From the NCBI GenBank assembly GCA_021234155.1, contig JAJEKV010000002.1, positions 23,204,942-23,268,941 of the forward strand: a stretch of 64,000 nt of DNA, given 5' to 3'. This stretch comes from Isoetes taiwanensis (lineage: Eukaryota > Streptophyta > Lycopodiopsida > Isoetales > Isoetaceae). The notes below the pieces were generated by a model. It saw only the letters and a program-made list of their open reading frames with translations, did not search any database and was not told the DNA's origin. Positions 2,630 through 56,399 of the stretch are shown in pieces. How positions within the stretch are numbered: the stretch's first letter is position 1; the number at the start of each line of letters is the position of its first letter. The translations under genes and the position numbers were made by a program.

Positions 2630-4808
2630 ACTTTGGCACAACAGGCTGGCCCATACTCATTGCAACAACTTAAAGCATCTAGCAAAGAAAGGTTTGATAA
2701 ATTGCAATGGTCTGAAAACTGAAAACTTCTTGTGTGAAGGATGCATCCTTGGGAAAATAAATAGACTGCCATTTGTAAAATCGAAAACCAGGGCCAAAGA
2801 TGTGTTAGAGCTGGTGCACACAGACCTATGTGGGCCATTAAATGTCAAAGGGAGGACAAACAAAAGGTATTTTATCTCATTCATTGATGACTACTCCAGA
2901 AAATGTAAATGTTATTGCCTAGAAAGAAAATCACATGCTCTAAATGCATTTAAATAGTATGTTGCTGAAATGGAAAGGGATTCAGGAAAAAAGCTAAAGT
3001 GCATTCGATCTGATAGAGGAGGAGAATACCTATCTTCCAAATTCAAATTATTTTGCATTGCTAATGGCATTAGAAGACAATTAACTTGCAGGTACAGTCC
3101 ACAACAAAACGGAGTAGCAGAAAGGAAAAATAGGGCTATTATAGATGCAGTAAGATCTACGATCAAGAAAAGTGGTCTTCCAAACTATCTCTGGGAAGAG
3201 GCATTAAAGACCGCCATATATGTGCAAAACAAGCTCCCTTCCTCGAGCATTAAAGGTAACATTCCAGATTTGTTGTGGTCAAAAGGAAATGCTAAAATAA
3301 ATTATGAAATGTTCAAAACCTATGGGTGCTTAGTGTATGCACATATCCCAAGTGAGCTCAGAAAGAAGTTAGAAAATAAGGCTGACATTGGATTCCTTAT
3401 GGGATATGACGAGGAAACAAAAGGATATAGAATCTATGTACCAGAGAATAAGAAAGTCATCATTAGCAGGGATGTCTATTTTGATGAAAACACCTTATAT
3501 AAGGATAGATATACCAAGAAAACAGTAGCTAAAGATAGAGCTACTGCTGTGGAAAAGAAACAGCGAGAATTTGATCTGGATTCATTGGAGGATGATGTTG
3601 AAAATGAGGTCATAACAAATGGTGAAGCTGATTCTGCAAGTGAAGCTCAAATTGAAGTAAGTAACAATGCACACCACAGCAATTATGATATACCATATAA
3701 AAGAGAAACCCAAGCTGAAAAGCTTTTAGAAGAAGCTGCAGTAGATCTGGATCACTATGGCAGAAACAGCATGGGAAGGAGCAAAAGGTTTGAAAAACAA
3801 AATGAAGATCATGAGCAGATAATGGCTATCTTGGATGATGTATTCATCCCCACCTCCTATGAGGAAGCAATGGAAAGTGAAGATAAAGCGAAATGGATGG
3901 AAGCCATGAATGATGAGTTAGAATCATTTAAGAAAACCCAAACTTATGAAGTTGTAAATCAGCCAGCAGGTCAGAATGTGATAGGATGCAAATGGTTATT
4001 CAAAATTAAAGAAAATGCAGACGGAAGCAAAAAATATAAAGCAAGACTTGTGGCAAAATGGTATACTCAGAAACAAGGACGAGATTTTGATGAAACTTAC
4101 TCCCCCATTGTCAAGCTGACAAGTATCAGAATCTTATTGGCTTTAGCAAATGCATGGGATTTAGAGCTGCACCATATGGATGTCAAAACTGCCTTCCTAA
4201 ATGCTAAGTTAGAAGAAAAGGTTTTCATGAAACAAGCTCCAGGATTTATGGAAGGACAAAGCAAAGTTTGGAGATTAAACAGGGTTGTGTATGGGCTAAA
4301 ACAGTCCCCCAGGGAGTGGTATTTTTGCATGGACAAGTTCCTAAGAGAGCAAGGCTTCGAAAAACTTCAAAATGATGGAAACCTTTATAGGTATAAAGAA
4401 GGGGAAAAATTTTGTGTAATAGCACTCTATGTTGATGATTGCATAATGGCAGCAAATCACATAAATATCCTCAACCATTGCAAGGGGATCTTGAACTCTA
4501 GGTTTCAAATGACAGACCTAGGTGAGCTAAAAAAATTTCTGGGAATCGAAGTAAGTAGAAACAGGAGTCAACGGATCTTGAAACTACAGCAGTGCAAGCA
4601 CATTGAAAACATGCTTAAAAGGTTTAACCTTGTAGATGCTCATCCAGTAAAAACACCTGCAGTTCCAGGACATAGATTGACAGATGAGAAGCCTATAACT
4701 GAAAAATATATTAAAGACATGGAAAATGTGCCATATAGATCTTTAGTAGGATGTTTGCTATATTTAGCAAACAATACAAGACCAGACATTGCTTACATTA
4801 CATTCTGA
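2600..4808 (+). pseudogene. Copia integrase and reverse transcriptase, broken
   Basis: The frame resumes with the GAG-pre-integrase motif (LWHNRLAH), then the integrase core: first Asp in HTDLCGP, second in RSDRGGEY, the Glu in NGVAERKN. A TAG at 2955-2957 interrupts it, and the same frame continues from about 2958. Reverse transcriptase follows with HHMDVKTAFLN and the catalytic YVDD (near 4430-4441), then KFLGIEV. A TGA at 4806-4808 stops the frame just before RNase H; the sequence there suggests small compensating indels. The motifs are all present, but the stops make a working polyprotein unlikely. Confidence 0.88.
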
Positions 4809-35581: not shown

Positions 35582-36000
35582 TTATGAATCTGTCATAAAT
35601 GTATCTTGGTATAATGAATGCATCTTTGCAGCATGGAAAGCTTCTTCCCCAAATGCACCATCATCTCCAGCTCCAGAGAGATCAGTGTGATTCGTGCAAC
35701 TCTCTCTCAATTCTACCATTCTCTCATACCATTGCCAAGTAGAAGGCTCTGCTCCTGTTCTGTCTTCAACATATTTCTCATCCTTGAATTTAGCCTGAAG
35801 CTTGTCCCATTTGTTGTTCAACTGCCTCAATTTGACCAAATGTGGCACTATGGAGGTCAATCTTTTTAAAATTTCTTTCCATTGGGAATTGGAAAGATTG
35901 ATATTACCATATGATATGGATCAATAATGCACTAATGGCATTATTCGACCATTCTAGTAATGATTTTCGCTTAGCTCTTGGCACCATTGTGTCGGAATTT
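35582..36000 (-). pseudogene. Myb/SANT-like domain fragment
   Basis: The minus strand reads QWKEILKRLTSIVPHL, QLNNKWDKLQAKF, then GAEPSTWQWYERMVEL, the layout of Myb/SANT-like (trihelix-type) DNA-binding domains found in plant transcription factors and as the second protein of Harbinger elements. A frame of 92 codons (35582-35860) is open; upstream residues lie in the same or adjacent frame to about 36000 with stops. It may derive from the same Harbinger family as 27553-28497 or from a host gene. Confidence 0.45.
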
Positions 36001-36099
36001 GGATACATAACCACCAATGCTTGGGATTTTCGACAAGAAATAGAATTTTGACTCATTTGCCCTGCTTCAAAGTTTGTCCTTCTGGCACAAACTATTATG

Positions 36100-36215
36100 G
36101 AATTATAGGGCCAGATACTGATCCGATCATTTTCTTTGGCTCATTTTCAACAGCAAGTGCTTGAATTATAGGGCCAGATACTGATCCGATCATTTTCTTT
36201 GGTTTTCTTGGCTGA
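36100..36215. repeat. Short tandem repeat
   Basis: AATTATAGGGCCAGATACTG plus the adjoining CCGATCATTTTCTTTGG occurs twice (about 36099-36143 and 36163-36203). Confidence 0.8.
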
Positions 36216-36339
36216 AATTCCTTCTCACGCCTTGGAGGAACAAAGGCCTTCGAATGATCCGAAGCCCTTGTCATATTATCAAGTCTACGATCTAGAAGAC
36301 AGTCAAGAATGAAGATAATCAAGTTTCTGCCATGAAATC

Positions 36340-37205
36340 TCCATTCCATTTGCCAAAATTAAAAAAAAAAAACTGAATTATGCAAAAATGTGTGACAAGA
36401 ATACAAAAATCTGATGCAATAATCCTTAGCTCATTCTAAATCGCCTTGATCCGGTCGGAATTGCCAAAAAGCTCAGTTTCAATTCTTCAACCTTTTAGTT
36501 GCATTGATGCTCTTACTTCGTGATTCTTTCTCATTCCAAACAAGCACTACTAAGTTAATCAAATAGTTTTAAATTTTAACAAGCATTACTAAGTTTGAAT
36601 TAGATTGTTTATCAAAGTATCTTTGGTTGTTTTTACAAAAATTAAGGTTGACAGTTTTCTCTATTGTTTTTAGGCATGCTCGTTTAGAGATGAGTGGCAA
36701 GAATGGGAATGCTCTTTGGTTATTGCACATTTCTACTTTCGATTTTGTTCGCCGTGCATAGTGACGAACATAATTACGGGAAATGCAAAGGGTCCCTAAA
36801 ATTTTGAAAATGAAAACGGGAACGGAACATGGAAACGAATAACACGAGAATATTCGAGAATATTCCTAAAAAATATTTAATTTTGGAAGAAGTAATTTTC
36901 ACCGACAGAAAATTTCGTCGTGAAATTTCCTGGCGAAATTTTCTGTCGGTGAAAATTTCCTTACGAAAAAACTAGGGCCTTGAAATTTGCCCCCGATCTT
37001 TTCTTTTCGGCGAAACTGGTAGCTCTTCCTTGGCGGCACCGCTTCGCAGGGGAAGGTGAAGTCAAGGGAGATCATCGCAGAGGAAAGTGCAAATCAGGTG
37101 AAGATCAGCTGCATTTTTTCGCTTTGAAAGAATGAGTAGTTTGGGGCCGAAATTTCAAGGACCCTGTTTTTTCGTATATTTTTTTTCGTATAGTGAAATT
37201 TCTAA
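36340..37205. repeat. Duplicated segment B, copy 1
   Basis: It matches 43386-44185 from TTAGCTCATTCTAA onwards, with only scattered differences. Its left part (36340-36425) matches, inverted, the left part of the DNA between the two MITEs. Copy 1 lacks the MITE, giving the empty site TTAG (36426-36429). Confidence 0.9.
36894..36960. repeat. Imperfect palindrome in segment B
   Basis: TTTTCACCGACAGAAAATTT and its reverse complement lie about 25 bp apart. The sister copy at 43870-43945 is more nearly perfect. Confidence 0.85.
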
Positions 37206-37353
37206 AAAAGTAAAAAAGAATACGAGTACTTTACAATGTTGGAACTTGCAACAGCCTCTTCATCCCTGTGGCACAAATTTCGATGACTCTCCATATCCTT
37301 CCTATCTAATGCAGTATCTATTTCTGTTCTCGCCTAATTTGTTCCTTAAAAAT
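37205..37353. repeat. Duplicated segment C, copy 1
   Basis: It matches 47905-47998 and then 49413-49458; copy 1 is continuous (CTATCTAATGCAGTATC), so the 1.4 kb at 47999-49412 is an insertion in the other copy. Confidence 0.88.
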
Positions 37354-38084
37354 TACGAGCATGTGACACGTTGCATTGATGGCATTTATTGCATTGATTT
37401 TAGATTTCTGCATTTATGAGCATTTATGGCGGATCAAAAACAGGGTCTGAAGGCGTGCCCAGGAGCCGGATTCCGCCGACCAAAGCAAGCCACCATCGCT
37501 GTCGTGCTATCTAGAGTTTAAGAATGCACCATCATTGCCGGATCGGAGAAGCGGCATTTGTTTTGTGTTTCAGCAGAGGGATGCAGCGACATCCAGGAAC
37601 ATTTTCTAATTTGTCATCCAGGAATACGCTTTAATCTGCCATAGAAAATTGCGGTTGAGCTGTTTGGGGTCATGCACTCCGATACGAGGTTTATTTGCTG
37701 CAAAAAAAACTCTGGCAGAGGTATTTGTGTTGGCATCCAAAAGCTTTCGGTATCACATTCTTGCCGTTTTGTCATCTAGAACTTCCATGTTCAACTGGTT
37801 CTTGCTTGTGGAGGCAACTAAACCTCATATTCTTGGATGCATGTATATTTAGGCGTCAAGAGCTCTTCAGCTACAACTGCTCCTACTCTTAAATCGCAGC
37901 CCTGAGTTATTATTGGAAATGGATTCTATGACATGGTGCTTGGAAACCGATTCATGTATGATCGTCATCTTCCAGTAAGCTCTTTGACTCTGTCCTACTA
38001 TGTTTATATAATTAGCTAATTTATAGTTTTTGCAAAAACTTAAAGCCTTTTAGAGATCTTCCAACCATTATCACTTATTAAACA
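37354..38084. other. No recognised gene
   Basis: Short open frames only. Confidence 0.4.
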
Positions 38085-39508
38085 ATAAAAATGGGTCGGT
38101 GTACCAAATCCGTTAGCTGGCAAAGCTTTGGTAAAAGGATGTACAAAAGCCAATCAGAGCTTGAACAGAAAAATGCGTCTTGCTCTACCTAGTCAGAAGA
38201 AGCTTTAAGCCCCTTGATGATGCTGTAATCGGCATGTAAACAGAAGCTGCCCGCATCTGCCCCCTTCTTTCTGGCCATGCCCGCACCTCTTTCATGCCAA
38301 ACAAAATAAAACCCTAAAAAGGAAGGTCTCGAGCTCTGTCCAGTTCGCACAATTTAGCTTTTGGGTTTCTGTAAATGTGCTTCTTTGTCCAAGCCTTGAG
38401 AATATGGACAGACAAAAGTACTTTGTAGCTCTTCGGAACTTATTGCCGTCAATATCATTCTCGGGGATGTTGGGTGCATTCATGCACAAAACCATGGGCA
38501 TCAACAGTGATAGCAAACTAGAAGCTATGGGTACTTTTCCAATTTTTGAACTTCTTATTTGTCATGCAGCAACTTCGGATGAGTTTGACTAATTTAATTT
38601 CTTGAGATTTCTAGCAATATAGATGGCTTATTTAAAATATATGGTTGGGTAATGTGTTGCAGGTTGCGGCAGCTAATATTATTGCATTAGCTTGGAACAT
38701 ATATTTTATCTTTTGCAACTCATACAGATGTAGGTGCAGGAAAGAATGATTTTGATTCTAAGGCAATATAACAATGAAGATTGTTGCAACGAAATTATGT
38801 ATTATAATTCTATTTGCAGGCTCTTTGTATAGAGTCTAGAATTAACCATCTTATAACTTGAATAAACTTGGCTACGCGAAAACCATATAGAATGAAAAGA
38901 ACTCTATATTGAATGTTTCTTCCTTGTATTAGATACCACTTCCTAGATTTCTCTGCAGATGTCCAACAATTTTTCCAACATTTTTTGTTATATTTTCACT
39001 GGTTTCTATCTTCCAAGCAATTCTATTATAAAGTGCATCCTTTGTAATAACAAGTTCTCATTATTAGACACAAGCTACATTGTGTAACAGGATTGCAATC
39101 TTTTTGTATTCTTTCAATGAACCTACAAGCAATGGAAAGTTATTTCCAATACAATGTTATTTCGCTGCAAAAGAGACAGAAAAAAAGAGAAAAGAGTAAG
39201 ATGGAAACAAGATTTTAATACGAGGACCTAAGGAGAATTAAGTTATGAATCATCCTTCTCATCTCCGCAGCACAAAGAAATTATGGTTTAACAATATGTT
39301 AAATTGAATCAAAGAAAAAAAATATCAAGACACTAGGATTCCTGAAAGATGGTGTTAATTGTATTGAGTAAGGAGAAACTTGCTAAGTTTAGCTAAGGGA
39401 TCTAAGAGTTGTGTATGGAACATCACAGGTTGTAGTGTTATCATTCTAGAACCAATCAAATATTTGCAACTAATGATGAGTATTTTGCATCGACATCTAA
39501 CAAAGAAA
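38085..39508. repeat. Duplicated segment A, copy 1, first part
   Basis: It matches 53877-55380 nearly base for base; copy 2 has an extra stretch near 54690-54765. The left boundary in copy 2 is a Helitron 3' end; copy 1 continues as CTTATTAAACAATAAAAA, an uninterrupted site. Confidence 0.92.
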
Positions 39509-39580
39509 TAGAATAGAATAGAATAGAATAGAATAGAATAGAATAGAATAGAATAGAATAGAATAGAATAGAATAGAATA
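39509..39580. repeat. (GAATA)n tail of the truncated LINE
   Basis: About 14-15 pentamer units. On the minus strand it reads as (TATTC)n after the LINE 3' end. Confidence 0.95.
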
Positions 39581-40774
39581 TGATTTTATCGTCCACGGAG
39601 ACCAACTGGCCTATGGGACCCAAGTACAAAGAGAGAGCAGCAGGCGTATTACTACCAGGATTAAAAAACCCCCCACCCCGAAGGGTTTTCGGGGGAAAAA
39701 CCTTAGTAGCAATAAGGATCTTGACATCTTGCACAGATTATATACATAATCACAAGTACACTGAGGTTAATGTCGGACGGGGGCATAAGCGAAGTCCGCA
39801 GATCCATTACCTCCCTGAGGTACGATCCCAACAAGTTTGGCCGTGCTCAAGTAGCTCATGCGTGGCCCGATGGGGCACAATTAACCGAGCATACCGAGCC
39901 CGGATATGCTCCTCACGGACAACAGGCACCGAGAGCGTGACTTTCATCCTCAATGGCGCCGTTGGCAAAGACGGCGGACTCTGTCCTCACGCTGCTCCCC
40001 GAATCCATCTCCCTGTCTCAATGCGGAGGTGGTGTGCACCGTGCAAATGGAAGCAATCACCCTGCGCTTTTTCATGGGTAGATGGGTGCGCGGCGGTAGT
40101 GGTGTGGGCCCCTCGTGAGCATGGGATTAACCTCATTGCCGATAATTTGCCACCTTGACATGTGACGGGGCCTCTCAGATCCCAAAGCTTGGCCATGAAG
40201 CAAGCATCCAAATCTTGCTTCAAAGGCAAGCGTTCCTTCGGTGTATGCAGCGGTCCACATCGTGTGCTCGCACATTCCATCGCGAGAACCACCGGGCTTG
40301 CTTGTCTTTCCATGAGCAGCCCATCGCCATCGCCAAAGCAAGGTTGGGCAGGGGCAAGCCACTACCTTACGGAAGTAAATAATGTGGCGTTCAGTATGAC
40401 CCTCTGTAATGGAAGGAAGCTTTGTCTCTGGAGCAAGATCGATATGGGACCGTGGATTTCACTCCCGGTGCAGGGCCAAGAAGGCCTTCTGTACCTGCTC
40501 TAGATCGTTCCAAGTGGTGAGGGATATCACTGGCCCTCACACTTCTGCCCCATAGAGGAGGACCGGTTCAACCAAGGCCTTGAACAAATGTGCCTGGTGA
40601 CCCCATGCATACGGCTCTGCCTTGTGACTGTTGTTTTGCATTGCATACAGGGCTTTCCAGCCTGCAGTGACCCGTAACCTGATGGATGCATCCCAGTGTG
40701 TGGTAGTAGAAAACTCAATGCCCAAATACTTATAAGACTGAGCCACCTCCACTACCTGCCCCTGGTAAGTGAAT
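39509..40774 (-). mobile_element. 5'-truncated LINE inserted in segment A
   Basis: Read on the minus strand: reverse transcriptase text SYKYLGIEFSTTTHWDASIR and GWKALYAMQ (about 40735-40610), the C-terminal region in broken frames, the conserved 3' end (TTTTATCGTCCACGGAGACC on the plus strand at 39584-39603), then the pentamer tail. The paralogue at 55371-55395 runs without interruption from AACAAAGAAATAG to ACACCATACC, so it is the empty site. No long target duplication is visible. Confidence 0.88.
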
Positions 40775-41659
40775 GACACCATACCTTAGTTTGAATAGCA
40801 AGAGTCTCTATAGAGCAGATATTGCTGTTGTATATGCATTGCACAGACTTTGACCATTGAAAATATTTTTTCCATTTACTTCTTGCATTGTGCTACCTAT
40901 AATATTTTAGCAAGTTTCTTTTCTTAAAGATGGTCATTTGTTTTCGTCACTTTGGATGTTGCTTTATTCATTTGCATCTAACACGACCTGAAACTTAATG
41001 CAGAGCTAACACAACCTAAGACTTATTGCAGAGTCCAACTTCATGAGGTTGGAACCAAAGAAATGTTCGCGGCTTGGCCGCCGCGATAAATTTCTTGTAT
41101 TAAAAATGATGTTCTCTTGTGTGGCCCATGGTTCTTAAACGGCAAATCGGCTCTGCAAATAGACAAATCTTCTGCTTTGCGAAAGACTTCTCAAAGTTCT
41201 TTAAGCGGCTATGATCTCTGCTTTTGTTACCGTCAACGGATTTTTTTCAAACATGGGCCTTTTTTGGGGGATTTTTAGGGCGACACCACGACCATGTTTG
41301 ATAACGTCATTTTTACCACAGTCGTTGCCGTGTTGAACGCAGTTTTCTGCTAAATTCGTGGCGGACGTGCAACGCGACCAACACGGTCGTGTTTCGTAAC
41401 TACATCACCGTGTCTAAAGCCTATGGTTAAAAACACCTCTTTCTATTCAAATCCTTAAATACCAAAGGGCATACAAATTTTAGATTTGCCCATTTGATTA
41501 AACTATTTTCTTAATACACCAGGGTTATGCTTTTTTGTACCAAAAACAATTGAGGCAACATGTTCATTGAAGTTTACAATTGAGTCTTGTTATTCTGTCA
41601 AAATATCTATTCATAGGCCTTTACGAATCTCTGCTACCTTAATAGTTGATCTACACATT
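40775..41659. repeat. Duplicated segment A, copy 1, second part
   Basis: It matches 55384-56230, ending at the CATT that is the target duplication of the first MITE. Small indels separate the copies (for example near 55870 and 55950). Confidence 0.92.
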
Positions 41660-42355
41660 ATGGCATATTCAACAAAACTTGGACTTATTCAAATTTAATA
41701 GATAACATTTCAAGGACGCCACTATAAGAATATATGTATTGTTTAATTCTTTTTTATTGTTATAATTTTTGTAAATTTTAATTATATAAGTCTTCAAATC
41801 AAAACTATAATGGTTAGTAAGAATATATAAAATTTCAATTTTTAGTGATTTAATAAATTTAAAATTTGGCAACTATGATAATTTCTAAATGAAATCTGAT
41901 GGTTTAATAAGCGATTGACTTAAAACTATTATGAGAATTTCATAATTTACAGACTTTTATACTTTTAAGGAAAGTTTTAGGTTGAGTTTTTTATTGATTA
42001 ATTTTCAATATATTTTATTTCATCAACAATAAATTATTCAATAGTTATTATTAAAATATAAACGTAATCATTTAATTAATTTCAATCTAAAATTTTCTTC
42101 TTTAAAGATTTTTAAAAAATAACATTTTAATCATATAGAATATATCTTAGATGAGAATTTAATTCTAAATATATTAAAGTAAAAAAAAATTAGGAAGCAA
42201 TTTTACACTTTTGTAACTATTATACTTTTGATCTAATGATAAATTGAACAAATTATTAGAATCAATAAAGCTAAAAATACATATTATCTTATCAAGGTAT
42301 CCTTGAAGTATATATGTTAGATTTGAATAAGTCCAAATTTTGTTAAATATGTCAT
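41660..42355 (+). mobile_element. MITE, left copy
   Basis: About 696 bp, very AT-rich, noncoding. Terminal inverted repeats of about 70 bp begin ATG(G/A)CATATT. It is nearly identical, in inverted orientation, to 42689-43385. Flanks are CATT on the left (41656-41659) and CTAA on the right (42356-42359). The 4-bp non-TTAA duplications would fit superfamilies such as Sola, Chapaev or Ginger; family unassigned. Confidence 0.9.
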
Positions 42356-42688
42356 CTAAGCATTATTGCATCAGATTTTTGCATTCTTGTCACACATTTT
42401 TGTCAGTTTTTTATTTTGGCAAATGGAATGGAGATTTCATGGAGAGTTCCGAAGAGCTAGGGGAACTAGATTTGGAAAAGCTTTAAGGACATTGCGAAAA
42501 GTTGAAGACGAATGAATTTTTGTCACAAATTGTAGAATATCTGTCTCACCCTCTGTAATATGATCCTGACCTTTGTATTGGGTTAACCCATATTTTTGAA
42601 ACATTGTACTATAATGAATACTTTCGTGGCTGGGTTGAATGTTTACCATGTCTTATTGAACTTTTGGATTAGAAAGTGCAGCACAATG
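42356..42688. other. Inverted 333-bp spacer with the end of a MORC gene copy
   Basis: Its reverse complement joins the right end of segment A (at CATT) to the left end of segment B (at TTAG). It contains, on the plus strand at about 42451-42515, a diverged copy of the last exon of the MORC gene at 56400 (GGAACTAGATTTGGAAAAGC ... GAAGACGAATGA) and its 3' flank. Confidence 0.9.
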
Positions 42689-43385
42689 ATGACATATTTA
42701 ACAAAATTTGGACTTATTCAAATCTAACATATATACTTCAAGGATACCTTGATAAGATAATATGTATTTTTAGCTTTATTGTTTCTAATAATTTGTTCAA
42801 TTTATCATTAGATCAAAAGTATAATAGTTACAAAAGTGTAAAATTGCTTCCTAATTTTTTTTTTACTTTAATATATTTAGAATTAAATTCTCATCTAAGA
42901 TATATTCTATATGATTAAAATGTTATTTTTTTAAAATCTTTAAAGAAGAAAATTTTAGATTGAAATTAATTAAATGATTACGTTTATATTTTAATAATAA
43001 CTATTGAATAATTTATTGTTGATGAAATAAAATATATTGAAAATTAATCAATAAAAAACTCAACCTAAAACTTTCCTTAAAAGTATAAAAGTCTGTAAAT
43101 TATGAAATTCTCATAATAGTTTTAAGTCAATCGCTTATTAAACCATCAGATTTCATTTAGAAATTATCATAGTTGCCAAATTTTAAATTTATTAAATCAC
43201 TAAAAATTGAAATTTTATATATTCTTACTAACCATTATAGTTTTGATTTGAAGACTTATATAATTAAAATTTACAAAAATTATAACAATAAAAAAGAATT
43301 AAACAATACATATATTCTTATAGTGGCGTCCTTGAAATGTTATCTATTAAATTTGAATAAGTCCAAGTTTTGTTGAATATGCCAT
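42689..43385 (-). mobile_element. MITE, right copy
   Basis: About 697 bp, inverted relative to 41660-42355, from which it differs at only a few positions. Flanks are AATG on the left (42685-42688) and TTAG on the right (43386-43389). Confidence 0.9.
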
Positions 43386-44185
43386 TTAGCTCATTCTAAG
43401 TTGCCTTGATCCGGTCGGAATTGCCAAAAAGCTCAGTTTCAATTCTTCAACCTTTTAGTTGCATTGATGCTCTTACTTCGTGATTCTTTCTCATTCCAAA
43501 CAAGCACTACTAAGTTAATCAAATAGTTTTGAATTTTAACAAGCATTACTAAGTTTGAATTAGATTGTTTATCAAAGTATCTTTGGTTGTTTTTACAAAA
43601 ATTAAGGTTGACAGTTTTCTCTATTTTGTTTTTAGACATGCTCGTTTAGGGATGAGTGGCAAGAATGGGAATGCTCTTTGGTTATTGCATATTTCTACTT
43701 TCGATTTTGTTTGCCGTACATAGTGACGAACATAGTTACAAAACACATCAATGGGAAACGCAAAGGGTCCCTAAATTTTTGAAAACGAAAACGGGAACGG
43801 AACATGGAAAACGAATAACACGAGAATATTCGAGAATATTCCTAACAAATATTTAATTTTGGAAGAATAATTTTCATCGACAGAAAATTTCGCCGTGAAA
43901 TTTCCTGCAGGAAATTTCACGGCAAAATTTTCTGTCGGTGAAAATTTTCCTTACGAAAAAACTAGGGCCTTGAAATTTGCCCCTGATCTTTTCTTTCCGG
44001 CGAATTTCTGGTAGGCCTTCCTTGGCGGCACCGCTTCGCAAGGGAAGGTGAAGTCAAGGGATATCATCGCAGGGGAAAGTGCAAATCAGGTGAAGATCAA
44101 CTGTGTTTTTTGCTTTGAAAGAATGAGTAGTTTGGGGCCGAAATTTCAAGGCCCCTGTTTTTTCGTATATATTTTTTTTTTTGAA
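43386..44185. repeat. Duplicated segment B, copy 2
   Basis: It matches 36426-37190. Differences include an added ACAAAACACATCA-like stretch near 43740 and a more perfect palindrome at 43870-43945. Confidence 0.9.
43866..43950. repeat. Near-perfect palindrome of about 80 bp
   Basis: It is centred on CCTGCAGG, with arms reading GACAGAAAATTTCGCCGTGA and the near-perfect reverse complement TCACGGCAAAATTTTCTGTC. It could form a long hairpin. Confidence 0.88.
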
Positions 44186-44929
44186 AAAGTAAACTAGCAA
44201 AAAGGCACGCCAGGGGCTGTGGTCGAGTTATGCAATGTCATGAAGGTCCCTTTTTTCTTTCCTTTTGTAAACTCTTATGCTTGTTACGCACACATAGAGA
44301 CTTTAGTTAGGTCAAATTTATTAGGCATCATACTCCATCAACTTATTCTTCTATGCCAGAGGTAGACACATCTAGGTAAATCCAAGGAATTTGGTCATAT
44401 AAAGATGAATGCAAACTTATTACCCTTGCAACCTTGCAAATATGCATTTCATATCAGGTCTATTAAATCCTGCTATGCTACTTAAAGACACTCCTTTCAT
44501 GTACACCCCAGAAGCAAACTAGTGTTTGGCATTGAAGAACCTCCTTGCAAACATACAAAGTAAATATTTACTTTGCATCTTTATTATATTTGAATGGATA
44601 ATCCTTTTAGTGGAAGATGATGCTTATAAGAAGATTCCATATACACCATATCAAAGAGAAATAAACAACTCAAAGCTGACCCATCTCTCCAAACTGCAAT
44701 TGCACATGGGATTGATGTCCTGTGCCAGCATTTTGCAGAATATAGGGTACTGCATACTTAGAATTTGTCCATGAACTTCCTTCAAACAGAAACGAAGAGA
44801 TAATGTAACATTGACACTCCAATGCTTTTAAAACTGTCACATCAAAATCAATTAGAAGAGAAGAGATGACACTTTTCACGGCAGTATGGAATCTATGCAT
44901 GAAAAAAATAAGGTGGCCCATATACTTCT

Positions 44930-45883
44930 ATTTGCAATATGCAGATTTAAGTCCACGACTTGGCCTTTCTGAATTTTGTCTCCAACCTGAAAATGGGAAC
45001 AAAGTCAAGGTTAAAAAACATAACTAAAGAACAGGAAAAGTTGAATGTAAATTCAGAAGATGTTTTAGTTTTGCAACTTCACAAGGAATGGCATAATCCA
45101 AGGATATGTTGGAAAAGTAAAGGCATTATATAATTTTACAGTATTATGGGGAGAAGAAAAATTGAGGCATATCACAGATGCAGTGAAAACATCTTAATAA
45201 AAGGAATGAGTCATTACCTTCACAAATGGAGGCTCTCCAGATCGAAGTCCAAAAAGGTTCCCGCCATTGGTGAAAGCATTGGCGGGAATTCATTTACAAA
45301 AGTGCAAAAGGAGGTGGAGGCAAAGATGGCGATGCATCCTCGGTTGTAGTGGCAATGGTAGAAGGAGCGGCGAGAACTGGCTGGACTTGAGCAGGCATTG
45401 ATTGAAATGCTGGGTATGGATACATTGTATGAGCCATAACATGAGGTCCAGGAAAGCTTTGAGGCGAAGGCGTAGGAAAGGCCTCTTGCCATTGATATTT
45501 CATAGTCCTTATACTTTAGTTCCAGCTCAACAATGCCTTTTGAATCAACAAGTCTGTAGTGGACAAACTTTGAAGCATTACTTTCTGGTAATATTTAAAA
45601 TGTAAAATCTCTGACAATCTTACTTGATCAGGCTGACAACATCGGAAATAAAGCTAAAAGCTTCATTAGAGAGATCGAGAAGCTAAAGAAGGGCAAGATC
45701 ATTGAGCTCGACCGCCGGATTTTGTTGCGCCATCATCTGCAAAATGAACATGACAAGTATTGCTGCTTATAAAATGTCAAGCAACAAACAAAAAAACAGA
45801 TCAAGGAAATGAGATTACCTCATTAGGTGTAAGAATGCTGACCTCACTAATAGACCCTTTGCAGGTTCTGACTGTGCCGACCC
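44930..45883 (-). pseudogene. Plastid acetyl-CoA carboxylase biotin carboxyl carrier protein, broken
   Basis: Four exon pieces with intact GT-AG borders are visible on the minus strand: 45883-45834 (VGTVRTCKGSISEVSILTPNE), 45736-45624 (ends AFSFISDVVSLIK), 45553-45218 (LVDSKGIVELELKYKDYEI, a Pro/Ala linker PTPSPQSFPGPHVMAH, then PPMLSPMAGTF and GEPPFVK) and from 44986 (VGDKIQKGQVV). This is the order of plastid BCCP, the biotin-bearing subunit of fatty-acid-forming acetyl-CoA carboxylase. Damage: TAG after NDLALL, frame changes after KDYEI, before VNEFPP and in a T run after MAGTF; the biotin site (EAMK with its lysine) is missing. Hence a pseudogene. Confidence 0.85.
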
Positions 45884-46861
45884 TGAAATTGATGGTGACA
45901 CAAAACAGAAGCAAAAAGAGAAAACTAAGTCAAAAGCAGACTATGAAGGCTAAAAGTTAACATCAGTAAAGAGAACTTGAAAAAGCAAACCTACACAGAT
46001 TATAATGTAGCAATGATACAAAACAAGAACCTTCTACCAATTTTTTACCAAAATTCTATGATGAAAAAGGAGCTTTAGCTTACATGAGGAGCATTGCAGA
46101 ATGCACATTGGAAACGAGCACCAGAAGTGTTACAAAAATTTGACAATTGCTGGGGATGCTGCGCTTTAAGGCAATATTGCATGTTTCTATATCCATGTTG
46201 AGAAGATCTGGGGAACAGAGCAGTGTCAGCACCATTGATGGCCCATCTGACCTGTTGATGGCGCACCCAAAACTACCATGATTTTCTCAAGCTATAGAAT
46301 ATATTTCTTCAGGCCGATTTTAAATCTGCAATCCCAACAAACCCATCAAGGTAAACGCAATATTTCCATTGCATGCATTGGATTTAAGGGTTAGACTTAA
46401 GAAAAAGAGGCTTCAGAGAAAGCAGGCCCACCTAAGCGGCCGAAAGGTGGCTTCAACCAACCGGAATATACCAGAAATGTTGGTCCATAAAGTTGTTTTA
46501 TCGCAATGCCATATTCCACCTTCTTCACTTTGTTTTTGGACAAGAAACCCTTAGCAATCATAAACAAAAGGAAAAAGTAGTTCCATGTGGACAAAGTTTA
46601 TTCACAATGCATGTTAGATCAGGTAAACAATTTTTCCAGGACATCATACTGTATGCTGGTGCCATACAAGATCAATGAACAGAAACTGTTAGGCAATAAT
46701 ATAGGAAATGTTTGAAAATAATGAACTTGAGGAGGGCAAAAATGGTAATGAAAATGCTAAGAGAGAGGATGAAGTCTACACTTGTTGCACATGAGCTGGA
46801 AAATGTGTCAAAAATAGGACTTGCAATAGCTCCAGAAGCATGTTGGAGACTTAAAAATATA

Positions 46862-47579
46862 TCAAAGTATGCATGAGAAAGGTTTAACGAATTGTCCATA
46901 TACACTACTCATTGGTGGTACCATCATTTTACAGGATGAAGCCTGTCTTATATCCAGCACAAATTCCTGCTTGAATAGATATCTTGTATTTATGTCTGAT
47001 AAAACTCTTATATCCAGCACGCGTTCCTGCTTAAATTGCACAAGGGTTTTACCTGATGAAATTGCAAGAGACGTCATTTTCCTTCTGTAGATCCGCGCCA
47101 TATTATTCTCAGTGTCGACATAACCCTAACCCATTTTGATGGCCATCGAAGAGCATAAAGCGAGGAAGCTTGATTTTGATTCTACACATAAAATATCTCA
47201 AACTACGGCAGTACATAAGAAGAATATGGAAGGAAACCAGAATCTGAATGCCTGTAAAATTTGCAAGAAAATAAATTACATCACATGGGTGCGGGGCATG
47301 TAGCCGGATCTAGATCTATAGATTGGATATTGGCAAAAGAAGAAGGTGTAGACAATATAAGAAAGGCGACCCATAAATCGTAGCTGAAATCAGGAAAAAG
47401 CTAAATAATATAAAAACCATGTTCATTGCCTCTGCTGCCTGCGAGACTCCCAAGCGAGCGACATAGGAAGAACCGGCGTACTTCTCCATATCTCTGTTTA
47501 TTTTTTCGTCAATTTCTGATTTTCTCCGTTTAATACGAAAGGAACCGGTTTTGGATTTAGGAGCAACAACGACGCCCAT
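46862..47579 (-). other. Possible upstream exons, unrecognised
   Basis: A frame starting with ATG at 47579 (MGVVVAPKSKTGSFRIKRRK) is open for about 54 codons to a GT at about 47418, and a further exon-like piece lies at 47119-47047 (MARIYRRKMTSLAISS) between TTAG and GTAAAA. They could be 5' exons of the same gene copy as 44930-45883, or of another gene. I do not recognise them as BCCP. Confidence 0.35.
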
Positions 47580-47904
47580 ATAGGTTCTTACCAGATCGGA
47601 ATCCTTTGGCTCTGTTAGTATGAGGAGAGGAAGAAATGAAAATTGCGGATAGTCACAGAAAGAAGGAATTGGACGAGCGAAACCAAAAAAATAAAGGCTC
47701 GATGGACGGAGGGAGTTATTTCGCGACCTTCTCCATCTCCGTGCTATTTTTAGCCATTTTTTCTAATTTTCTCGGCCATTGATTCGTAAAAGAGAGGATC
47801 TGAAGGTGCAGAACATGCCACCTCACGTTTTGCTTACTTGGAACTGCTACGTGGATAGCCTAGAATTGCAAGGAGGGTTGCACGCTTGGTTAGGCTGGCG
47901 TGCT

Positions 47905-47998
47905 AAAAAGAATACGAGTACTTTACAATGTTGGAACTTGCAACGGCCTCTTTATCCCTGTGGCACAAATTTCGATGACTCTCCATATCCTTCCTATC
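47905..47998. repeat. Duplicated segment C, copy 2, first part
   Basis: Matches 37210-37305. Confidence 0.88.
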
Positions 47999-47999
47999 A

Positions 48000-48290
48000 C
48001 CCCTTTGGTTTGGGTGCATATTTACACGGGGGGTGACTCCGGGCAACGAGAGCTGTTGGATAGGCATATTCACCCCTTATTCCTTAATCTACACCGTACG
48101 TAAAGTTCCTCGTTTGTGGGGTATACAAGTACAAAATTTGCTATACTGTATAACAAGATTCGCAAAATACTATAAGATTTCAAGCGGAATACTATATGGT
48201 GTTGATTTCGTACGTGCAAAATATAATTATGAGGGCTCTCGCTGCCCTACGTCACCCCCTGTGTGAATATGCACCCAAACCAAAGGGGGT
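48000..48290. mobile_element. Small inverted-repeat element (MITE)
   Basis: The first 38 bases (starting CCCCTTTGGTTTGGGTGCAT) are repeated in reverse complement at about 48252-48290 with three mismatches. The interior is about 210 bp and noncoding. It sits at the left edge of a 1.4-kb insertion into segment C. Confidence 0.8.
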
Positions 48291-49084
48291 TTTTAAGGGG
48301 GATTTTAATTTAAATGTGTTAGACCCAATGGTTGTGTTAATTAATGTCAATGGTAGTTATGTGGGTTGTTAATGTCAATGGTTGTTATGTGTTGGTTGTT
48401 ATGTGTTGGGGGATTTAATTTTTATATGTTGGATGTTAATGCTTTGTATTGCAAATTTTTTTTTTTTGCCCCTTTGGGGCCTTAGGGACGTCACCCCTCT
48501 CCCCCCCCCCCCGGTGTGACAAAAATTTTAGAATTCAAACCAGAAAAAAACTAGAATTCATTTGAGGCTTTCATCACCTGTAGCTTTTGAATTTCATCAC
48601 AATAAAACAAATAGAACATAAGTAAAAGTTACCATAAAGATAGAGCAGATTGATCCCATTATTCTGAAAGTCATAAAGTTTGCAACACCCATACACAAAC
48701 ATTTTTCAACTGGAATTTAACAGCAGCCTTTGGCCTCCATGGATTCTTGTGGTGAGAAACCAAAGTGGAAAACTTTTCTGCTTGTTAGCACAAGGATCTA
48801 GAAGCCTCAAAATCTAAAAATGCATGGTAATTTTTTGCAAGCTTCATTCAGAATGAGTCATAAAACAATATCCAATCGCGCAATCCTGTATTAATCAGCT
48901 GGTAGGATGTGAAAGCCTACCAAACCCGGCCGGAAAATTGCTGTTTTAGCATAGATAACTTACCCAAACATATCCATATCATACATATCGAAAAGATCTC
49001 GGAGAGAGCTTTCCAACGCAATAAAAATCATCTGAAACAAAGCTCTAGATCAAAAGTTATGATAAGAAATGTGTTGCCAACGGG
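48291..49084. other. Rest of the insertion, no gene recognised
   Basis: Includes GT-rich direct repeats (ATGTGTTGG, TTAATGTCAATGGT) at 48310-48430 and a C12 run at about 48502-48513. Confidence 0.5.
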
Positions 49085-49265
49085 GAAACTGCACTACATG
49101 CACAAAAAAAGGCTTTTGTTGTGAGTCATTGGCTGTTGACCATTATGCACCACATGCACAAAAAAGGGCTTTTGTTGTGAGCCATTAGTTGTTGACCATT
49201 ATGCACCACACGCACAAAAAAAAAGGCTTTTGTTGTGAGCCATTGGTTGTTGACCATTGGAAAAA
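49085..49265 (+). repeat. Three tandem repeats of about 62 bp
   Basis: Each unit contains GGCTTTTGTTGTGAG(T/C)CATT and GTTGACCATT; the three copies start near 49092, 49150 and 49209. No CRISPR-like spacer structure. Confidence 0.88.
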
Positions 49266-49412
49266 AAAAGGGCTAAAATCAATGGCTCAGAAATGGCGCA
49301 CTCTAGATGTACTCATTAGTACATCCATTTGAATACATCACGAAATCATAGGAAAACCTTAGTGAAAAGCGTACAAAAACACAAAGAAAACCCCCTGTTA
49401 TTATGCTACATA

Positions 49413-49458
49413 TTGCAGTATCTATTTCTGTTCTCGCCTAATTTGTTCCTTAAAAATT
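49413..49458. repeat. Duplicated segment C, copy 2, second part
   Basis: Matches 37311-37353 (GCAGTATCTATTTCTGTTCT and onwards). Confidence 0.85.
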
Positions 49459-51322
49459 ATTACTTGCCAATATTAGTTGTTTACAGCCAAGCTTAGTGCC
49501 AGCGACCAAATATGAATGAGGAGAGCATCCTTTTACCATATCTTTGGACAATGCACTATAACCATTCGTAGACTCTGTATTTTTCCTATTTCACTTTTGT
49601 CTGCTTCTTTTCATTTAGAAGACCATGTTTTGCATCCAACCAAATCACATGATGGCTCACAACACAGGCCAATAGCCCTCACGCTGGCGTGCTTACTCTT
49701 TAAAGGTACCTATGTTACTTCCATTTTGCATATATTTTAACAACCTGATAGTCGCCTATGTTACTTTCTAGCAACTGCATTATGCGGTGATGCAAATTGC
49801 AAGATGCAGGCTCATGGATTGAATAATGAATGGAAAATATCACTTTAACTTCTTGCACATGAAGTGCTTACCATTAATAATTCCATCTTTCCATCATCTA
49901 TTCATATATACTAGGACTTTGAAAAAGTATTAAATTCTTCATTAAATTCTTAGACAATTTCTGAAAACTCAATTTCGTTTCTTACTTCAGGTACATCCAT
50001 AGGTTGCAATATAGTCATATCATCTTCCTCAACTCGCAACTACCTCTGTGATTCTTTCGCAACAACCAGTTGTATTTACGATGATAGCATGACCATATCA
50101 CAGAGGAGTTTGCACACTGCAAAAATTCATCCATCCAGCTCAATTGTCAAGGTTTGTTCTGAAATTTGCGGCAATCAGACACATATCCATTGCATACATG
50201 ACCAACTTCAACAGTCTGTTTGCAGTCATCTCAACATCTTTATGATCATACCTTCTTACCTCTATACTTCCAAATCGTTTCGCTTACCTTCATGTCAATA
50301 CAGGTTCGGTCTACAGCATCCTTGGTATTTGGCTTCCTTTGTGCTGTCAGTCCGTGACTATGCAGGACATCTGATAATAGGAGATGTACCATGAAGAAAA
50401 GGCTCCGACATTTTCATATGTTCCTTTCCTATCCTCTGATACCCAGATATAATCCGATCCTCTCCATAAAGGGTAAACAGCTCCCATGTTGATTCTTTCA
50501 TAACTTAGGTAACGAGGTTTCACATTATTCTAATCTACATTTGTTTACATTTCAATTGCAATGCAGTGTTTACCATTGAGGTTGCAAATGTCGTCTGCCC
50601 TGACATCTAAAACAATAGGTTTCTTATTTTTGAAAGTTTCTTCCATTTGTCAGCTTCTAACCATATCTGCTCTCATTCACACAATAAAAGAGCACTTCCC
50701 CGTGAACCCAGCATAGAGAATAACTCTTTAGCTCACCAACTAACACAACCTAGGTATTTTTTCCACCTTCACTTGATGGTATTCCCGATGTTTTGCTTCC
50801 AGATTTGCTTCCAGCATTATTTTAAAGTTGTATGCATGAAGGCGATTTCACAATGTGCAGATGCATGAGCATGGAGCAATAAGATGCTAGATCAAAGAAT
50901 TGCATGCTTTTATCCAGCAAACACCCATAATATAGCACGCCTTTCCAGCCTCATCTTGACATTGAAGGTATGACACTATTCTTTGTTAATCAATAGGCTA
51001 ATACTATGATACAATGGCTAATATTCCGATATGATATCCATTTATTCTACAACTTTTTTTCCTTCATATATGTATGAGCTATTGCAAGCATATATTGTTG
51101 CGATGCATATATATATCACGTTGTGCCAACAAGGATGTAGAGATACTATAAATTATTTATTGACTGACTACTCTGCGCATGCATATATCTCAGTCCCTTG
51201 GATGTCCTTTTTTTTTAAAAGATACAATAGCCTGCAAGTACCAACGTGTTCTACACTTGAATTGAGGTATGTCTGATGCTATATTAAATGAAACTGAAGT
51301 CTTAACATCTTATGCATTTGTT
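49459..51322. other. No recognised gene
   Basis: AT-rich with short open frames only; I see no transposon end or RNA gene. Confidence 0.45.
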
Positions 51323-51464
51323 ACAGGTTAGTTTTACCCTACTGATGCACTGTGCCGCAATAGTAATCCAACTTAGTACGAGAGGAACCGTTGATTCGCA
51401 TACTTGGTCATTGCGCTTGGTTGAAAAGCCAGTGGCGCGAAGCTACCATGCGTAGGATTATGAC
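51323..51464 (+). rRNA. 25S rRNA fragment (retrocopied, not a functional gene)
   Basis: It begins ACAGGTTAGTTTTACCCTAC, passes through CTTAGTACGAGAGGAACCGT and TTGGTTGAAAAGCCAGTGGC, and ends GGATTATGAC, all near-universal text of the large-subunit rRNA 3' region. Several C-to-T and G-to-A changes fit decay of a methylated copy. Confidence 0.93.
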
Positions 51465-51955
51465 GCTTATAGCTTCCATTCGCACGGGGGCACATCGCCT
51501 CCGCATTGAAACAGGGCGTTGGGCTCGTGAAGCACGGGAGCAAAGGCTTTGCCAGTGTTGCCACCAGGGCGCGATTGAGGATGAATGTCATGCCCTCCAG
51601 ACCTGCCCAGCATTTGCCCATATCCGACAGCGATATGTTCGATTACTAGTGCCTGCCCAGCCGTTGCATCAGTTATTGGCTACGGCGTCAGTGGGTTTGT
51701 TGGGGTCATACCTCCAGGAGGTTATGGATGCACGGACTCGTTTGTGTCCTACGGGACGGCATTGAACTGTCCTATGCAATTGTACAGTGTGCCAGCAGGC
51801 TTATTACTGCTAAGGTTTTTCCCTCGAAAACCCTTCGGGGCGGGGGTTTTTTAATCCTGTCAGTAATATGCTTGCTGCTCTCTCTTTTTTTGTTTGGGTC
51901 CCATAGGCCAATTGGTCTCCGTGGACGCTAAAAACCTATTCTATTCTATTCTAAT
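51323..51955 (+). mobile_element. Chimeric retrocopy: 25S rRNA piece fused to a LINE 3' end
   Basis: 51323-51464 is sense 25S rRNA including the sarcin-ricin loop (TAGTACGAGAGGAACC). From 51465 the sequence is LINE: a frame with IMTLIASIRTGAHRLRIETG, the zinc motif CQCCHQGAIEDECHALQTC, the 3' untranslated region with AAAACCCTTCGGGGCGGGGG and GGTCTCCGTGGACGCTAAAA, and an (ATTCT)n tail. Both parts are in the same orientation. This is the structure expected if the reverse transcriptase jumped from LINE RNA to rRNA. It is related to the GC-rich LINE at 9540-10055. Confidence 0.88.
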
Positions 51956-53848
51956 ATTAAAGCCTTTTCACCAGTGGTGTTTATAGCTTAGCGTGTGGTC
52001 TAAGCACCCACAACCCACGCTGAAAAGTTAGATTTGTAAGTTCAAAGTACACCTTTGACTTGGACTTCTTTCATTCTGTGTATTTTCGTTTTCTGATCAC
52101 AGAGTCTTAGTCTTAGACTGTGGAGTTAGCATTGGTTGCATATGCAAAATACGGTTTCAGTTAGTTATAAGCAATGATTGCCTTTTTGACATGAGCATAT
52201 TATAAACCATATTGTGGTTGGAAATGCAAAGTACAGTTTTTGTTTGTTCTGAGTTATGCCCGGCTTCTAGATGTGACTACACCATGCTGTCGGCATGTAT
52301 TTAGCTGCACATGAATATATGGACATGCATATTCAACTTTTATCATGAGTTCTGCCACCCTTTGCAAACAGCTCGACTGTTGGTAAGTGTTATTAAATTG
52401 ATAAGGTTATGTAGTTTTTGTAGCTATTGCCTGCTTTGCATGTTTAGGTCGAATACAAGTTTCCCAAATTTGGATATATTAAAGGCCATTCAGGCGAGCG
52501 AATATTGTTCCGTCAGATCTAGAGTACAAATAACTATAACTAGGTTGTCATTCTGAACATCTCTATTCAACATTTCTATTCATGTGCCATTTACTTTCAA
52601 ATGTTTCTGTAGATCAGAAGCAGAATCCAGAGTTGCAGGCCTCAATGAAAGCATATTTGTCACTTCTATAAATGTTGTAGGACCATCGAGTGGCATGTTT
52701 ATTCTAGCATCAGGTTTTAGTAATGCCTATAACTTCATTGTTGCATTGACATGCTCCAATTTTCTTATCTTGCTGCCATATATAATATTTTGCAATGGCG
52801 CTTTCTTGAGTAAGATCTTTACACCTGACGTCATTTTATTCCAGGACTTTGTTTTGGATAGCAGATGTTGTATTGGCACCATAAACAACACCATTCAAAT
52901 CTACCTCTATTCTTGCATCACAGAGCTGTCAAAAATGAATTGTTCAACCTAGCAGCCACACTTCAGCAATCTTGACACCATACTTCCGACAGAGGTCTCT
53001 GATATATATAACTCCTCTGAAAATAAGTTTGCCCACAGCCAGAAAAGGGTCGAGGATAGGAAGACACTAACTTCGTCATATGGTAATAGCTATGACATTG
53101 ATATCCAAGGTTTACTATCTCTAGCATTTTTGATGTACGATATAATATGATATCTGCAAAATATCTCTTTTGTTAACAATCGACAATGAAGGTACACTTT
53201 GTGCATTCAAATATAATGCAAGATGGACAACATTAACAATGTCGTATTGGAGATAAGCTCACTTTATTCCTTTACAACTATGCATAGGCATTTCTTACAA
53301 ACATGCATAGGTTACACACCTAACAGTTGCATATTCAGGTTCCATGTTAGGTATGGTTGATGAATCTTGCAATGTTCCTCTATGTTACCCTTGCCCCTTC
53401 CAAGCAAAAAAGGAATTGACATTCTCTTTGGGGTTTATTCCACATAGGAAAACAACAACCAAGCAACTCTGAAATAATTTTCCATATTCTTTCCAACTAC
53501 ATTGTCGCATTGCACTTTAAAGATTTCAATTGTCACATTTCCCACAAACAACTATGTCACTTCAAAATTGCATCATAGAATATGCTCAATATTCCTATCC
53601 CAACGGCATTTACAACTTCATTAACTAAGATTATTAAATCATATCGTCACAAACTTGAATCCTAATTCATCTCGACTACTTCCAATCACAAATCATATCC
53701 TCACAAATTTCAAATCTAATTCATCTCAACTACTTCCATATCAAGACACAACAAAATGAGACTATTTGTACGTAGTCCAACAAAATACCACATGTACACA
53801 AAATTAATGAATTACACATCACACAACGACCTCTTCAAATGTTGAAAA
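51956..53848. other. No recognised gene; one weak tRNA-like stretch
   Basis: At 51975-52052 text starting GGTGTTTATAGCTTAGCG and ending GTTCAAAGTACACC has pairing ends and A/B-box-like words, so it may be a tRNA-derived repeat; support is weak. Part of this region should belong to the Helitron that ends at 53876, whose 5' end I could not place. Confidence 0.35.
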
Positions 53849-53876
53849 GCCCGGCAACGCCGGGCACCATAACTAG
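53849..53876 (+). mobile_element. Helitron 3' terminus
   Basis: Hairpin GCCCGGC-AAC-GCCGGGC (53849-53865), seven bases, CTAG (53873-53876), then T. Segment A starts directly after it; in the other copy (38072-38090) the same sequence continues without the Helitron, so the boundary is confirmed by an empty site. Confidence 0.82.
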
Positions 53877-56230
53877 TTAAACAATAAAAATGGGTCAGTG
53901 TACCAAATCCGTTAGCTGGCAAAGCTTTGGTAAACGGATGTACAAAAGCCAATCAGAGCTTGAACAGAAAAATGCGTCTTGCTCTACCTAGTCAGAAGAA
54001 GCTTTAAGCCCTTTGATGATGCTGTAATCCGCCTGTAAACAGAAGCTGTCTGCATCTGCCCCCTTCTTTCTGGCCATGCCCGCACCTCTTTCATGCCAAA
54101 CAAAATAAAACCCTAAAAACGAAGGTCTCGAGCTCTGTCCAGTTCGCACAATTTAGCTTTTGGGTTTTTGTAAATGTGCTTCTTTGCCCAAGCCTTGAGA
54201 ATATAGACAGACAAAAGTACTTTGTAGCTCTTCGGAACTTATTGCCGTCAATGTCATTGTCGGGGCTGTTGGGTGCATCCATGCACAAAACCATATGCAT
54301 CAACAGTGATAGCAAACTAGAAGCTATGGGTACTTTTCCAATTTTTGAACTTCTTATTTGTCATGCAGCAACTTCGGATGAGTTTGATTAATTTAATTTC
54401 TTGAGATTTCTAGCAATATAGATGGCTTATTTAAAATATATGGTTGGGTAATGTGTTGCAGGTTGCAGCAGCTAATATTATTGCATTAGCTTGGAACATA
54501 TATTTTATCTTTTGCAACTCATACAGATGTAGGTGCAGGAAAGAATGATTTTGATTCTAAGGCAATATAACAATGAAGATTGTTGCAACGAAATTCTGTA
54601 TTATAATTCTATTTGCAGGCTCTTTGTATAGAGTCTAGAATTAACCATCTTATAACTTGAATAAACTTGGCTAAACGAAAACCATATAGACACTTGTTAC
54701 TCGTACTGTGTTGGGATTATGGACTCAAGTCTGAACATGCACGAATTGGGTAAGCCAAAGGTTGAAAAGAACTCTATATTGAACGTTTCTTCCCTGTATT
54801 AGATACCACTTCCTAGATTTCTCTGCAGATGTCCAACAATTTTTCCAACATTTTTTGTTATATTTTCACTGGTTTCTATCTTCCAAGCAATTCTATTATA
54901 AAGTGCATCCTTTGTAATAACAAGTTCTCATTATTAGACACAAGCTACATTGTGTAACAGGAATGCAATGTTTTTGTATTCTTTCAATGAACCTACAAGC
55001 AATGGAAAGTTATTTCCAATACAAAGTTATTTTGCTGCAAAAGAGACAGAAAAAAAAGAGAAAAGAGTAAGATGGAAGCAAGATTTTAATACGAGGACCT
55101 AAGGAGAATTAAGTTATGAATCATCCTTCTCATCTCCGCAGCACAAAGAAATTATGGTTTAACAATATGTTAAATTGAATCAAGAAAAAAAAAATATCAA
55201 GACACTAGGATTCTTGAAAGATGGTGTTAATTGTATTGACTAAGGAGAAACTTGCTATGTTTAGCTAAGGGATCTAAGAGTTGTGTATGGAACATCACAG
55301 GTTGTAGTGTTATCATTCTAGAACCAATCAAATATTTGCAACTAATGATGAGTATTTTGCAAAGACATCTAACAAAGAAATAGACACCATACCTTAGTTT
55401 GAATAGCAAGAGTCTCTATAGAGCAGATATTGCTGTTGTATGTGCATTGCACGGACTTTGACCATTGAAAATATTTTCTCCATTTACTTCTTGCATAGTG
55501 CTACCTATAATATTTTAGCAAGTTTCTTTTCTTAAAGATGGTCATGTGTTTTCGTCACTTTGGATGTTGCTTTATTCATTTGCATCTAACGTGACCTGAA
55601 ACTTAATGCAGAGCTAACACAACCTAAGACTTATTGCAGAGTCCAACTTCATGCGGTTGGAACCGAACCGCCGCGATAAATTGCTTGTATTAAAAATGAT
55701 GTTCTCTTGTGTGGCCCATGGTTCTTAAACGGCAAATCGGCTCTGCAAATAGACAAATCTTCTACTTTGTGAAAGACTTCTCAAAGTTCTTTAAGCGACT
55801 ATGATCTCTGCTTTTGTTACCGTCAACGGATTTTTTTCAAACATGGGCCTTTTCTGGGGGATTTTTTATTCGACAAGGGCGACACCACGACCATATTTGA
55901 TAACGCCATTTTTACCACGGTCGTTGCTGTGTTGAACGCAATTTTCTGCTAAATCCGTGGCGGGGCTACGGGGTTTCGTAACTACATCACCGTGTCTAAA
56001 GCCTATGGTTAAAAACACCTCTTTCTATTCAAATCCTTAAATACCAAAGGGCATACAAATTTTAGATTGCCCATTTGATTAAACTATTTTCTTAATACAC
56101 CAGGGTTATGCTTTTTTGTACCAAAAACAATTGAGGCAACATGTTCATTGAAGTTTACAATTATCCTGTCAAAATATCTATTTATAGGCCTTTTCGAATC
56201 TCTGTCACCTTAATAGTTGATCTACACATT
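53877..56230. repeat. Duplicated segment A, copy 2
   Basis: It matches 38085-39508 plus 40775-41659. It lacks the truncated LINE and the MITE. Beyond 56230 the match continues, via the inverted spacer at 42356-42688, into the 3' end of the MORC gene. Confidence 0.92.
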
Positions 56231-56399
56231 GTGCTGCACTTTCTAATCCAAAAGTTCAATAAGACATAGTAAACATTCAACCCAACCGCGAAAGGATTCA
56301 TTATAGTACAATGTTTCAAAAATATGGGTTAACCCAATACAAAGGTCAGGATCATATTACAGAGGGTGAGACAGATATTCTACAATTTGTGGCAAAAAT

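Follow-up and report, generated by a model that had tools for sequence, protein, structure and literature searches.

Inverted DNA between two near-identical MITEs with exchanged target-site duplications in Isoetes taiwanensis

Results

Two MITE copies in opposite orientation enclose a 333-bp spacer

The window, namely the whole 64,000-nucleotide stretch of Isoetes taiwanensis DNA analysed here, contains a Copia-type LTR retrotransposon frame at 2970-4805 (RVT_2, E 8e-74) and an exon-like frame on the minus strand at 58539-58802 (HATPase_c_3, GHKL ATPase, E 6.5e-10), which we take to be MORC-like. Sequence comparison across the window identified two MITE copies in opposite orientation around a 333-bp spacer (Table 1); the original prediction of two near-identical inverted MITEs at this locus was right to the base. 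The copies differ from each other by (i) T/A at 42113, (ii) a 1-bp indel in an A run near 42180, and (iii) T/A at 42262, and the two repeats are identical over their outer 453 bp. At 42262 the A of copy 2 is private, with T in 36 and a gap in two of the 38 other family copies compared. At 42113 these copies show both states (25 A, 5 T, 2 G, and 6 gaps), and this difference, which adjoins an A run, says little.

The terminal inverted repeats of copy 1 are imperfect (45 bp at 87%, then 35 bp at 77%). The inverted-repeat score of the whole element is 192, compared with 44 on average in 200 shuffles (sd 13), and since it is still 92 once the outer 90 bp are removed (shuffle mean 42, sd 13), the inverted symmetry reaches weakly into the middle of the element. 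No stop-to-stop ORF of at least 70 aa lies wholly inside either MITE copy, and one 81-aa frame (42673-42918) crosses from the spacer into copy 2.

Table 1. Features of the MITE pair, its spacer, and the surrounding tandem duplication (window positions)
Feature	Position	Strand	Remark
Left end of tandem-duplication copy 1	36326-37186	+	carries MITE-free TTAG site
Duplication pairing	36426-37186 with 43386-44177		
Duplication pairing, two short pieces	37213-37306 with 47905-47998; 37307-37355 with 49411-49459		
Duplication pairing	38070-39512 with 53869-55384		
Duplication pairing	40775-41659 with 55383-56230		
CATT, outer half of first target-site duplication	41656-41659	+	single CATT at 56227-56230 and in L065
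MITE copy 1, 696 bp	41660-42355	+	termini ATGGCATATT...AATATGTCAT
CTAA, inner half of TTAG duplication	42356-42359	+	read as turned along with spacer
Spacer, 333 bp	42356-42688	-	resident DNA, read as now inverted; reverse complement gives ancestral orientation
Junction of older tandem duplication (approximate)	42446-42452	.	within spacer; turned spacer 1-237 resembles right end of copy 2, 244-333 left end of copy 1
AATG, inner half of CATT duplication	42685-42688	+	read as turned along with spacer
MITE copy 2, 697 bp	42689-43385	-	inverted relative to MITE copy 1
TTAG, outer half of second target-site duplication	43386-43389	+	single TTAG at 36426-36429
Duplication pairing	first 237 bases of turned spacer with 56227-56463		
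Right end of tandem-duplication copy 2	53869-56463	+	carries MITE-free CATT site

The family has 4-bp target-site duplications

A family search gave 2029 first-look candidates, of which the best 40 were scored; two of these are the window copies, and the other 38, in 36 loci, were fetched, so that the set is ranked by likeness to the window copy and is not a random sample. Both ends were recognisable in 24 copies. A perfect 4-bp duplication flanks 15 of them, although these do not amount to 15 independent insertions, the 24 including segmental duplicates (L017/L019; L026/L031/L044), and none of the 15 has a 5-bp duplication. No matching duplication was found in the other nine full copies, including L028 and L041, which lie within tandem-duplicated arrays. 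The family is short, non-coding, and of high copy number, with terminal inverted repeats and duplications of a fixed 4 bp, as is characteristic of MITEs.

The Sola superfamily is defined, in the part of the source available (PMC10741241), by a 4-bp target-site duplication, and the present family agrees with it in duplication length; a further mark of Sola is the DDD transposase of an autonomous partner that has the same ends. The Ginger superfamily, defined in the same part by 5'-TG...CA-3' termini and a 4-6 bp duplication (PMC10741241), was rejected on its termini: both window copies, with limits fixed by the empty sites, are 5'-ATG...CAT-3', and all 15 copies with matched duplications have A as the first base and T as the last. 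Searches of an open-licence library listed no report of this MITE or inversion; the I. taiwanensis genome paper contains no word beginning with MITE (PMC8566536), and the sole mention of MITEs in the available text of the I. sinensis paper is the program MITE-Hunter.

The flanks and the spacer indicate an inversion

The spacer starts with CTAA and ends with AATG, and the outer flanks of the pair are CATT and TTAG, so that in the present state the flanks match for neither MITE; turning the spacer makes them match for both, exactly as originally described. Since 11 of the 552 ordered pairings of flanking 4-mers from different family copies give a match (2.0%), two accidental matches would have a chance of ∼4 in 10,000, with the alignments left out of this count. 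The prediction further held that the reverse complement of the spacer would align to two other loci of the window, and this it does: spacer positions 1-237, turned, are identical to 56227-56463 at 229 of 237 bases, while positions 244-333 (the last 90) align to 36326-36429 with 88 identities, two mismatches, and 14 gap positions. The unturned spacer gave nothing above noise against these two segments (a 12-bp match, and 21 identities with five mismatches and two gaps).

Moreover, we searched the whole assembly (1,658,258,908 bases, 1110 contigs) with the turned spacer. The 24 places listed comprise the window locus itself, 56227, one place on contig C1063 (L065), 36330-36429, and 20 dispersed matches within spacer positions 247-332; the window locus is the sole whole-length match among the 24, and no locus with two MITEs and an unturned spacer was found. 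The L065 alignment starts 200 bases left of the MITE, crosses an empty CATT site, and continues within the turned spacer, with 402 identities, 13 mismatches, and 12 gap positions in all. All three dispersed repeats that were fetched from the 20 (L066, L067, and L068) span the TTAG site in the turned orientation, with the letters TTAC, TTAT, and TTAC, respectively, at this site.

At the level of the assembly, these alignments all but establish that the DNA between the two MITEs is now inverted against its ancestral orientation. As read from the letters, both insertions demonstrably made 4-bp duplications, which are now exchanged between the elements.

The spacer spans the junction of an older tandem duplication

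The two related loci had been regarded as paralogues that retain the empty sites. Their single CATT and single TTAG were borne out; the loci themselves are the far ends of one tandem direct duplication (36326-56463), of which the matching segments of the window are collinear pieces and whose junction lies inside the spacer. Neither is an empty paralogue of full length, as each covers a different part of the spacer. At the junction, the end of copy 1 and the start of copy 2 are separated by ∼6 unmatched bases. Copy 2 begins within a dispersed repeat, which continues left to at least 36153 in two relatives. The dispersed repeat at 35585-36475, a possible PIF/Harbinger-type element, carries a minus-strand frame with a Myb/SANT-like domain (Pfam PF13837, E 2e-6), and this frame lies just upstream of a stretch recurring in 20 further places of the genome.

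Between their matching parts, tandem copy 2 contains ∼9.7 kb (44178-53868) in place of 0.9 kb in copy 1, which in turn has an additional ∼1.2 kb at 39513-40774. Over 38070-41659 and the spacer, the tandem copies differ at 74 of 2518 aligned bases, and this divergence of 2.9% suggests that the tandem duplication is older than the MITE pair.

The two MITE copies resemble each other more than any other copy compared

By substitution, the window pair is 99.7% identical, and its nearest relatives among the 38 copies compared are L010 (95.1% over 533 aligned bases) and L009 (93.9% over 661). Seven pairs among the 40 copies exceed 99% identity; six of these share at least one flank, as duplicated segments do, and the window pair is the sole one with unrelated flanks, the next-best pair at unrelated sites being 97.8% identical. 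A recent burst of the family finds no support in the same comparison of the 40 best-scored copies, where no further pair exceeding 99% identity has unrelated flanks. Six bases are common to the window pair and absent from all 38 other copies, although the alignment is uncertain around three of them, which lie in an A run. Furthermore, only two substitutions separate the pair, compared with the 20.4 expected (Poisson P 3e-7) for a pair of the same age as the tandem duplication. The window copies thus come from one template or were homogenised. Given this near-identity, and with none of the 38 other copies compared above 95.1%, two unrelated insertions would be unlikely unless gene conversion equalised the copies.

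Neighbouring family copies are mostly in the same orientation

We surveyed 20 neighbourhoods of ∼9.8 kb each, nine of which contain another family match, only a fragment in two of the nine. The near-identical neighbours in L047 and L051 lie within direct duplications that include flanking DNA, as do the neighbours in L057, which are 93% alike; L051 holds three family copies ∼1.5 kb apart in a short direct tandem array with flanking DNA. Among these nine neighbourhoods, most neighbours have the same orientation, the exceptions being L050, where the inverted partner is a 211-bp internal fragment, and L060, where an inverted pair of 86% identity lies less than 0.9 kb apart. One L060 copy retains its own CCTT/CCTT duplication, which indicates that inverted neighbours do not always flip. 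A second family search, in which the best 40 of 2057 candidates were scored (partly the same copies as in the first), yielded pairs within 10 kb that all have the same orientation. Apart from the window pair, neither search, with 40 best copies scored in each, contained a close, near-identical, inverted, full-length pair.

Discussion

A probable route by local copying and recombination

We consider it probable that the present arrangement arose by local copying followed by a recombination flip. A member of the MITE family would have inserted at either the CATT or the TTAG site, with a 4-bp duplication, and a copy from the same template would then have inserted 333 bp away in the opposite orientation, by what we infer to be local transposition. 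Homologous recombination between the inverted ∼0.7-kb copies would finally have turned the spacer and exchanged the inner halves of the duplications. Such exchanged, non-identical duplications are the expected outcome of recombination between inverted elements in the available part of a maize paper (PMC8225341), and the exchange seen here fits recombination on that expectation. Several findings count against this route: among the 24 places matched by the spacer, none has two MITEs around an unturned spacer; neither family search of 40 best copies contained a second near-identical, inverted, full-length pair; and the L060 copy with its own CCTT/CCTT belongs to an inverted pair.

The original prediction had read the swapped duplications as proof of two insertions followed by inversion. 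The 4-bp duplications, their exchange, and the inversion hold up; two separate insertions followed by recombination are not proven, and the word was too strong, because in a symbolic check the insertion of a hybrid element from one site gave the same product as recombination between two inverted copies. The inversion is thus firmer than the exact route by which it arose.

Alternative routes

In the hybrid-element route, after replication, transposase would pair the 5' end of the element on one sister chromatid with the 3' end of the sister copy. Insertion of this hybrid 333 bp away would produce the second copy, the inversion, and the exchanged duplications at once, as a one-step duplicative inversion. 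Delprat et al. (2009) also give this product as the same, and leave hybrid insertion possible where duplications are exchanged, identical copies pointing to a hybrid and chimeric ones to recombination (PMC2775673, available text and legend of Figure S1A). Between copies that differ at three places, the chimerism test has no power, and no chimeric pattern is visible or could be. Hybrid insertion predicts identical, inverted, adjacent copies, and copies that are near-identical, inverted, and adjacent are observed, as would equally be expected after copying and a flip. It needs the fewest events (two, compared with three for local copying and a flip). However, sister chromatid transposition of Ac/Ds is listed with inverted duplications and deletions, not with clean inversions, in the part of a second maize paper available (PMC3744419), and a further close, inverted, near-identical pair is missing from both searches of 40 best copies.

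In general, aberrant events are much rarer than standard local transposition, and over many generations recombination between inverted repeats of this length is frequent enough. On these background rates, which are not a measurement, we infer that local copying with a flip is likelier, and regard hybrid insertion as the main rival, though an unlikely one. Even less likely, in our view, is the original reading with conversion added, in which two differing copies inserted unrelatedly, were later equalised by gene conversion, and had the DNA between them inverted by a crossover. Close repeats are well known to undergo gene conversion, and with ∼2,029 first-look candidates placed at random in 1.66 Gb, 0.8 pairs per genome would be expected to lie within 333 bp by chance; however, conversion would need to span all 696 bp with no divergent patch left, and other pairs at unrelated sites reach at most 97.8% among the 40 copies sampled. 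A composite transposon, with both MITEs carrying the spacer between them, was rejected: the pair has CATT on one outer side and TTAG on the other, and related loci hold the spacer as resident DNA.

An assembly error, in which the spacer was mis-oriented between the repeats, seems very improbable. Mis-orientation between near-identical inverted repeats is a classic error with short reads, the outer 453 bp leave nothing to tell the repeats apart, and A runs, which are prone to nanopore errors, contain or adjoin two of the three differences. However, such long reads normally span 1.7 kb, and the window is free of any N. According to the available part of the genome paper, the I. taiwanensis assembly was built from Oxford Nanopore reads, together with Illumina reads and a Bionano map, and comprises 1658.30 Mb in 204 scaffolds and 909 contigs (PMC8566536).

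Comparison with known systems

Among known cases, inversion 2z3 of Drosophila buzzatii, with Galileo elements at its breakpoints, shares with the present locus (i) opposite copies of one element at the breakpoints, (ii) exchanged target duplications, and (iii) single target copies in the uninverted state, there in uninverted chromosomes (Delprat et al. 2009, PMC2775673, available part). It differs in that it is a chromosomal inversion for which chimeric copies decided in favour of recombination, whereas the present one is of 333 bp, with a non-coding MITE whose copies are too alike for that test. In the reversed-ends and sister chromatid transposition of maize Ac/Ds, transposase acts on the ends of two elements and gives rearrangements that include inversions; both systems show new target duplications, and in each the breakpoints are occupied by elements, whereas the maize events were obtained with an active transposase and have 8-bp duplications, and their reversed-ends inversions lose the DNA between the two elements, where here nothing is lost (PMC8225341 and PMC3744419, available parts). 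A 29.8-kb MITE-associated inversion in Brassica napus, linked to cleistogamy, likewise has opposite plant MITEs at its breakpoints, but these are 327-bp PIF/Harbinger MITEs, and the inversion, of ∼30 kb, affects two genes (Wan et al. 2022, as cited in the available part of a review, PMC12595863).

Implications

This small, base-perfect inversion neatly exemplifies a known process, and its ancestral orientation, the insertion sites, and the duplications are all readable from one genome. It also illustrates that exchanged target duplications alone cannot separate recombination from aberrant transposition. If hybrid insertion is true, a non-coding element that makes 4-bp duplications would have produced a duplicative inversion naturally, and in a lycophyte. 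As the copies are close and nearly identical, the pair could flip back and forth, and both orientations may exist and still segregate in the population.
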